Shown here: positions 4,090 through 5,871 of the stretch, one piece after another | Numbering within the stretch: position 1 is the stretch's first letter | How the letters are laid out: each line of letters opens with the position of its first letter | NCBI RefSeq assembly: GCF_000186365.1 | Contig: NC_014961.1 | Location: 1-64,000, forward strand | Source of the DNA: Desulfurococcus mucosus DSM 2162 | GTDB taxonomy: Archaea > Thermoproteota > Thermoprotei_A > Sulfolobales > Desulfurococcaceae | Reading direction: 5' to 3' | Length of the DNA stretch: 64,000 bases | Notes under the pieces: model-generated | The model's input: only the letters and a program-made list of their open reading frames with translations | The model's database searches: none | Told to the model about the DNA's origin: nothing | Made by a program: the position numbers and the translations under genes

Positions 4090-4164
<75 letters not shown>

Positions 4165-4223
4165 AGCAATTTTCATGGATACGCACCCGGGATTTTAAAG
4201 CATACCGCCCTCTATGCGATGAG

Positions 4224-4232
4224 CTTTAAAAA
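4224..4232 (+). promoter_or_regulatory. TATA box of tRNA-Gln
   Basis: CTTTAAAAA, about 35 bp before the tRNA 5' end, so the predicted start is about 10 nt upstream of the mature tRNA. Confidence 0.65.
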
Positions 4233-4263
4233 CCTGCAACCCCCATATCTAATGTATTGAGGA

Positions 4264-4503
4264 AGCCGGGTCGTCTAGCGGCCAAGGATGCGGGGCTCTG
4301 GCCCACCCCCGGCCGCCTGACCCTTCTAAGCCAGCCCAGTCAACACCTAGGGTGGGTTCCTGCGACCCTATGAACAGATTCCCGGAGGATGCCTGGTGCA
4401 TGTGGAAAAACTTAAAAGCCCGGCTACCGGATTATTAGGGTAGGGTCAGGCGGCCGCGGTGGGGAGAGCCCCCGTGACCGGGGTTCGAATCCCCGCCCGG
4501 CTA
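4264..4503 (+). tRNA. tRNA-Gln (anticodon CUG) with a 167-nt intron
   Basis: Exons are 4264-4301 and 4469-4503, and the intron 4302-4468 sits at the usual place after position 37. The spliced tRNA has a perfect AGCCGGG/CCCGGCT acceptor stem, discriminator A, anticodon stem CGGGG/CCCCG with loop CTCTGGC, and T loop TTCGAAT. The intron starts with CCCACC, which pairs with GGTGGG near its 3' end (bulge-helix-bulge type), and is then closed by a 14-bp GC-rich helix (4311-4324 with 4442-4455). The intron is far longer than most archaeal tRNA introns and carries an internal promoter-like element at 4405-4418. Confidence 0.93.
4405..4418 (+). promoter_or_regulatory. BRE/TATA-like element inside the tRNA-Gln intron
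   Basis: GAAAAACTTAAAAG matches the crenarchaeal BRE plus TATA pattern and resembles the promoter of the same tRNA at 4224. A start 25-27 nt downstream falls at about 4440, exactly where the intron helix strand 4442-4455 begins. It could drive a separate transcript of the 3' half. Prediction only. Confidence 0.45.
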
Positions 4504-4506
4504 CCT

Positions 4507-5871
4507 TTACTTCCACGCTGTCATCTTGTCAACTACTTCATCCGGGACCTTTCCCTCTAAAACATCCTTCACGGACTCCTCGATGATATCTATCCCCTTG
4601 TCGAGGTCTTCCCTCGGTATGGTTAAGGGTGGGGCTATTCTGAGGACGTTGCCGTATTTACCGTAGGTCATCATCACCAATCCCTTTTCCCACGCCCTCC
4701 ATATTATCTTCAACGCCTTCGCTCTATCAGGCCTCTTGCTCTTCTTATCTACAACTATGTCAACCCCTATCATTAAGCCTAACCCTCTCACATCGCCCAC
4801 TACTTCATACTTCTCCTTTAACTCGTTGAGCCTCTTCAACGCGTACTCACCCATCTCCCTGGCCCTCTCATGCAGGTTGTTCCTGGTGACGTATTTCACC
4901 ACTGCTATTGCGGCGGCAACCGAGGCTGCATGCGCGGCGGAGGTCGCGAAGAATGACTGGGGTGGGGCTGAATCCATGATATCGCTCCTCCCGACGACGG
5001 CGGATACAGGCATCCCGCCTCCAAGCGCCTTGCCCAGCACCATTAGGTCCGGCTCCACGGAGTAGTGCTCTATGGCGAATAGTCTACCGGTTCTCCCCAT
5101 GCCGGTCTGCACTTCGTCATCTATTAGCACGATCCCGTGTTCGCTTGCCATCTTCCTCACCCCTTTAATGAAGTTCGCCGGCGGTATCAGGACTCCCCCG
5201 TCCCCCTGAACAGGTTCAAGTATTATGGCTGCTACATTGGAGCCCCCGATCTTCTTCAACAACTCCTCGAACCTGGATAAATATAGCTCGCCGCATTCCT
5301 CAGGGTCTTCGACGCCGCCTATACACCTATAGGTATCCGGGTACTCGGCGAAGTACACATCCCTGAACGGCATTAACCCGCGTAGCTCGGGGCTGAAGGA
5401 GCCGCTTACAGCTATGTCGAGGGCTGTTGTCCCATGGTAGGAGTAGTCGAAGGACACGATGACGCGTCTACGCGTATAGACTAGTGCAGCCTTCAACGCT
5501 GCGTCGTTAGCGTCTCCGCCGCTCAGTCCGAATGCGACTTTTTTCTCGAAGGAGCCTGGAGTGATGCCTGCGAGGAGCTCAGCCAGCTCCACTACTGGTT
5601 CATGGTAGAGGTAGAGGCAGTAATGTATGAACTTGTCTAGCTGCGTCTTCACTGCTTCCAGTACTTCCCTATTACTGTGTCCGACATTATACGTGGCAGC
5701 GCTCGACAGGAAGTCTATATACTCCCTTCCATCGGTGTCCCATATCCTCGCGTTCAACGCTTTCCCAACGATCATTGGGAAGTACTTGAACGCCTGACTA
5801 CCTGAGACGTACCTCTTATATTTCTCTATGAGCTGGGAGCTCGTGCCACGTGCCCGGCTTGGGGAACCCAT
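4507..5871 (-). CDS. Class-III PLP-dependent aminotransferase
   Basis: A 454-aa fold-type I enzyme of the GABA/ornithine/acetylornithine aminotransferase family. Visible are the glycine-rich cofactor loop (GLSGGDAND, ~115-123), the YHGTT region near 145, EPVQGDGG (~219-226), the aspartate in DDEVQTGMGRTG (251-262) that contacts the pyridine nitrogen, and the Schiff-base lysine 281 in LGKALGGGMP. Thermococcal relatives include ornithine omega-aminotransferases and broad-specificity amino-acid racemases, and sequence alone does not decide between them. It lies back to back with a small membrane protein and an alanine-type symporter, which suggests use of imported amino acids. Confidence 0.85.
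   Translation of the reverse strand: MGSPSRARGTSSQLIEKYKRYVSGSQAFKYFPMIVGKALNARIWDTDGREYIDFLSSAATYNVGHSNREVLEAVKTQLDKFIHYCLYLYHEPVVELAELLAGITPGSFEKKVAFGLSGGDANDAALKAALVYTRRRVIVSFDYSYHGTTALDIAVSGSFSPELRGLMPFRDVYFAEYPDTYRCIGGVEDPEECGELYLSRFEELLKKIGGSNVAAIILEPVQGDGGVLIPPANFIKGVRKMASEHGIVLIDDEVQTGMGRTGRLFAIEHYSVEPDLMVLGKALGGGMPVSAVVGRSDIMDSAPPQSFFATSAAHAASVAAAIAVVKYVTRNNLHERAREMGEYALKRLNELKEKYEVVGDVRGLGLMIGVDIVVDKKSKRPDRAKALKIIWRAWEKGLVMMTYGKYGNVLRIAPPLTIPREDLDKGIDIIEESVKDVLEGKVPDEVVDKMTAWK

Follow-up and report, generated by a model that had tools for sequence, protein, structure and literature searches.

Is the tRNA-Gln(CUG) gene of Desulfurococcus mucosus DSM 2162 an ordinary tRNA gene with an unusually long intron, or a pair of split-tRNA halves that lie side by side? 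The gene occupies positions 4264-4503 of the forward strand in the window analysed here, the first 64,000 nucleotides of contig NC_014961.1, and both its coordinates and its sequence were verified. It spans 240 nt, whereas the other 44 tRNA genes detected in D. mucosus are all 114 nt or shorter. The 5' half (4264-4301; tRNA nucleotides 1-37, with the anticodon CUG at 4298-4300) and the 3' half (4469-4503; nucleotides 38-73) have the same sequence as the uninterrupted gene in congener G001, and the 73-nt tRNA obtained by joining them is 100% identical to that of G001, which rules out a pseudogene. An exact-half search found a single Gln(CUG) 5' half in the genome, and ARAGORN and the Rfam tRNA model were both silent on the gene. 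The initial annotation had read the locus as two split-tRNA halves placed next to each other. Gene anatomy, the match to an internal promoter and the split or adjacent orthologues of relatives support this reading, and we consider it probable that the locus is a split tRNA gene with adjacent halves, whose transcripts would be spliced in trans and perhaps in cis too.

The halves are interrupted at splice sites 37/38 by a 167-nt intervening sequence (4302-4468) that is absent from congeners G001 and G002. The predicted precursor contains a complete and canonical helix-bulge-helix-bulge-helix (hBHBh') structure at this junction, in which 28 of 28 pairs form: the anticodon stem (4291-4295/4470-4474), a central 4-bp helix (4296-4299/4463-4466) with two 3-nt bulges, GGC and AGC, and two outer helices of 5 bp (4303-4307/4458-4462) and 14 bp (4310-4323/4443-4456). 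In the latter, which is rich in GC, the trailer strand is the perfect complement of the leader strand, and a 15th pair (4324/4442) extends it. This 15-bp stretch is the longest Watson-Crick run joining the intron ends, a length reached by 0 of 2000 shuffles, and folding of the whole intron beats 200 of 200 shuffles (z -3.4), chiefly owing to this terminal helix. The closing helix described at the outset is real, although its second strand lies at 4443-4456 and not at 4442-4455. It was also said to be right next to the splice sites; it is indeed near the junction, but a 5-bp helix and a 2x1 internal loop intervene.

Promoters were scored with a 16-column matrix for the B recognition element (BRE) and TATA box, trained on the sequences upstream of the other 44 D. 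mucosus tRNA genes, against a background of 144 kb of the genome on both strands (287,970 positions, internal site included). Within the 117-nt spacer that separates the helix strands (4325-4441), the forward-strand site GGAAAAACTTAAAAGC at 4404-4419 reaches 18.2 bits. It exceeds all 44 other tRNA promoters (best 17.6), is the only site to score so high in the background and was equalled by none of 1000 spacer shuffles. It begins 38 nt upstream of the helix strand that leads into the 3' half. The usual archaeal distance from TATA box to start would place transcription initiation near 4440, 2-3 bases ahead of the 14-bp helix strand, which would then fall close to where the predicted 3'-half transcript begins. 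The 5' half has a predicted promoter of its own, GATGAGCTTTAAAAAC at 4218-4233 on the same strand, with 12.5 bits; it lies 46 nt upstream of the mature 5' end, as is typical of D. mucosus tRNA promoters, in which the motif begins about 44 nt upstream. Both elements had been proposed from the letters, as a BRE/TATA match at 4405-4418 and a TATA box at 4224, and both hold, the first of them as an exceptional site.

We rejected GGAAAAACTTAAAAGC as the promoter of some other gene: the next gene, a class-III aminotransferase at 4507-5871 on the reverse strand (Pfam PF00202 and the open reading frame list), is convergent, so no forward-strand gene lies close downstream for it to serve. A bacterial promoter scan was set aside as irrelevant to an archaeal host. 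The intron also carries GCCCGGCTACC at 4418-4428, a copy of the tRNA 3' end (4495-4505) that could pair with the 5' acceptor strand. This repeat partly overlaps the promoter consensus and may be due to chance, and its interpretation as a scar of splitting was set aside.

To place the gene among its orthologues, the exact 5' and 3' halves were searched in 214 genomes of the order and in a second contig collection, and the loci were read individually. The 109 distinct 5'-half loci comprised 38 uninterrupted genes, 48 with introns of 14-58 nt, six with long introns and 17 for which no 3' half was recognised in the vicinity. Subtracting from these 17 two ordinary Thermoproteales-type genes that the T-arm pattern had missed, and adding G117, leaves 16 genomes in which Gln(CUG) is encoded in separated halves, again split at 37/38; G106 and G182 were rejected as splits, being ordinary genes. 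The 16 are all six members searched of family f5, which includes Desulfurococcaceae archaeon AG1 (BEWT01000001), all seven of genus f2/g57, and G042, G117 and G090. Their 5' and 3' parts lie on different contigs in most genomes, 267 kb apart on a single 1.39-Mb contig in G042 and 2 kb apart in G090. Each has one exact 5' half, and no intact Gln(CUG) copy was found in any of them. In the six genomes with adjacent halves, D. mucosus included, the intervening lengths are 127, 167, 187, 190, 195 and 221 nt. The initial annotation had proposed looking for separated tRNA-Gln halves in related genomes, and the comparison thus bore it out. Most of these relatives are metagenome assemblies; the cases least open to assembly doubt are D. 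mucosus, G042 (one contig) and AG1, which has no metagenome label.

The separated halves resemble those of D. mucosus in their flanks. A complementary, GC-rich trailer and leader was present in each of the 16 genomes. Taking together the 22 genomes with split or adjacent halves, cognate trailers and leaders pair with a mean energy of -42.0 kcal/mol, against -30.3 kcal/mol when re-paired, a difference matched in 0 of 100,000 permutations. In 11 of the 16, the 3' half has its own promoter 34-42 nt upstream of the helix, a range that includes the 38 nt of D. mucosus. Among the six adjacent cases, the internal promoter is strong in three (D. mucosus, G013 and G091).

Comparison of loci provides states on either side of the D. 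mucosus arrangement. Congeners G001 and G002 keep the same order of PEPCK, tRNA-Lys, tRNA-Gln(CUG) and aminotransferase genes as D. mucosus, where the divergent tRNA-Lys(UUU) lies at 4091-4164 on the reverse strand, and their tRNA-Gln is uninterrupted. In genus g45, with conserved neighbours, one species has an uninterrupted gene, one a short intron and two adjacent halves. The sister pair G090/G091 of genus g42 shares its flanks, PriX to one side and a KaiC-type ATPase together with a GcvH-like gene to the other; the halves are 221 nt apart in G091, while in G090 genes for a PfkB kinase and a DeoC/LacD-family aldolase lie between them on the opposite strand. No copy of the aldolase was detectable in G091, but this assembly is 84% complete, so insertion in G090 and loss in G091 are indistinguishable. 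The 117 nt between the helix strands had been thought dispensable, and in that sense the suggestion is supported by this pair, which differs by two genes in the spacer. In D. mucosus, the spacer has no significant match in congeners, phages or plasmids, and a mobile-element origin of the 167 nt was rejected on that ground.

The survey yielded several additional observations. In AG1-type genomes (loci L039, L042, L061 and L062), an sR20-like C/D box small RNA lies downstream of the tRNA-Gln 5' half; it matches Rfam RF01140 at E 8.5e-7 to 5e-3, under the gathering score. It adjoins the 5' half directly in AG1 and G060, whereas in G061 and G062 up to a few tens of bases separate them; the two are possibly made as one transcript. 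Lone tRNA-Gln 3' halves with their own TATA-like site, whose 5' partners were not found, occur at L044 (G013, contig C64) and L224 (G118, contig C33). They may represent additional split genes, of Gln UUG in the case of G013, or result from missing contigs. At L225, L227 and L228 (G149, G151 and G154), tRNA-Gln has, next to the intron after the anticodon, what appears to be a second one immediately in front of it.

Two transcripts would be made in D. mucosus: one with the 5' half, running from 4264 to about 4324 or further, under the promoter at 4218-4233, and one with the 3' half, from about 4440 to 4503, under that at 4404-4419. The trailer (4303-4324) and leader (4442-4462) could then pair in trans over 19-20 bp, restoring the bulge-helix-bulge for a two-subunit splicing endonuclease to cut at 37/38, and RtcB would ligate the halves into what would be the only tRNA-Gln(CUG) of the cell. 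The heterotetrameric endonuclease and the ligase appear to be encoded, as the genome has two EndA-family genes (PF01974) and one RtcB gene, and in other species the crenarchaeal two-subunit endonuclease processes split tRNAs (PMC3218864). The helix agrees with the complementary trailer and leader of about 12-20 bp expected of split tRNAs, here 14-15 bp plus 5 bp. Split tRNAs are also defined by separate loci, as found in the 16 relatives; in D. mucosus the halves are adjacent on one strand with the 117-nt spacer between them, and the gene is therefore filed as of the adjacent-halves type only. Read-through from the 5' promoter probably also yields some continuous, cis-spliced precursor. No T-run follows the 5' half, so both trans and cis routes are to be expected.

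The strongest competitor is an ordinary, if unusually long, canonical intron, spliced only in cis from one precursor that starts at 4218-4233, with the internal TATA box incidental or weak and the helix merely holding the splice site. Both halves lie on one strand, the bulge-helix-bulge is perfect in cis and there is no terminator between them, and short introns of 14-58 nt occupy the same site in many relatives. Other results also count against a split gene. In the absence of a T-run, which G004 and G091 do have, nothing obvious would halt a continuous precursor. The internal promoter is weak in G004, G102 and G104, where 134, 136 and 189 of 1000 shuffled spacers matched it under the D. mucosus matrix, and the 3' halves of G061, G062, G042 and G090 score poorly under that matrix. 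In the analogous tRNA-Asp of Aeropyrum pernix, a full-length precursor has been detected as well, and it is argued that cis-splicing may contribute (PMC4307357). Against the cis-only reading, the promoter match is the best in 144 kb and has the correct spacing. Intron lengths in relatives leap from 58 to 127 nt, the long class occurs alongside separated halves, and G090/G091 indicate that whole genes fit in the spacer. On this evidence, we regard a purely cis-spliced intron as rather unlikely.

How the split arose is a separate matter, and it touches a standing debate, in which split tRNA genes are seen either as relics of the first tRNAs or as products of late breakage. In a tree of RtcB, D. 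mucosus falls within its genus as sister to an intact species, with another intact species outside, and the split and unsplit states need at least six changes on well-supported branches. This is one gene tree and a rough guide, from which the direction of change is inferred. In G064, the RtcB matches fall in two adjacent pieces (L313/L312; query 1-181 and 182-435), so that the gene may be split or frameshifted, or the assembly may be faulty. The split state of the D. mucosus gene appears to be derived and recent within the genus. On balance, we lean towards repeated, independent splitting of Gln(CUG) at one and the same position within the order, by a common late pathway from an intact or short-intron gene to a long intron with its own promoter, as in D. 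mucosus, then to genes between the halves, as in G090, and finally to scattering, as in AG1-type genomes and G042. If so, split tRNA genes would be derived and recurrent, not ancestral, and all stages would survive in living relatives. The opposite polarity, with the split ancestral in the order and the uninterrupted congeners as re-fusions, would change this history but not the mechanism. It is consistent with the separation of all searched members of one family and one genus, and parsimony on one gene tree cannot fix direction. The placement of D. mucosus among intact species, the number of changes and the occurrence of uninterrupted orthologues at the same locus argue against it, and we find it improbable. 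Lastly, retention of a long intron for a small RNA cargo (a C/D or H/ACA guide, as in archaeal tRNA-Trp) is very hard to credit: C/D box RNAs do lie behind the 5' half in AG1-type genomes, but no Rfam guide RNA matched 4200-4560 even at E<=1 and no clear C and D box pair was noticed on reading the spacer.

Full-text searches, with subscription papers and tRNA databases outside their scope, returned only Asp(GUC) and Lys(CUU) as split tRNAs of Desulfurococcales, and neither a split Gln(CUG) nor any split tRNA in Desulfurococcus turned up in them; the novelty of a split Gln(CUG) is thus provisional. Its value lies in the range of states in close relatives, where the gene is intact, interrupted, adjacent-split or fully split, partly at conserved loci, so that the order of events, the number of origins and the cause are open to test. 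The findings also suggest that the few published split tRNAs represent a much commoner class and that ordinary tRNA finders overlook such genes, as both ARAGORN and the Rfam model did here.

Compared with canonical archaeal 37/38 introns, the D. mucosus gene shares the splice position and the bulge-helix-bulge but differs in its 167 nt (14-58 nt in relatives), its long helix and its internal promoter. The split tRNAs of Nanoarchaeum equitans, Caldivirga maquilingensis and Staphylothermus (Lys CUU) likewise have their own promoters, complementary leaders and trailers and a bulge-helix-bulge, but their halves are separated, whereas those of D. mucosus are still together. N. equitans splits Gln(UUG) at 32/33, D. 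mucosus Gln(CUG) at 37/38. For tRNA-Thr(GGU) of Caldiarchaeum subterraneum, the published account also describes intronic and split states in close relatives with DNA inserted between the fragments, and invokes a recombinase-coding element (Sugahara et al. 2012, PMC3293823); the genes between the halves of G090 are for a PfkB kinase and an aldolase, and a recombinase was not seen there. The closest counterpart is tRNA-Asp(GUC) of A. pernix, both halves of which have been detected by northern blotting (Chan et al. 2011, PMC3218864). It has adjacent halves on one strand and likewise no separate loci, a junction at 37/38, a canonical hBHBh' structure and a 14-bp GC-rich stem. Its intron is 121 nt, similar in size to the D. 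mucosus spacer, and its strong internal promoter is predicted to initiate transcription 20-25 nt ahead of the 3' splice site (about 28 in D. mucosus). The D. mucosus case concerns Gln(CUG) instead of Asp and is predicted from sequence. It can be compared with an intact gene that congeners keep at this locus, and with a version of this tRNA whose halves are fully separated in other relatives.
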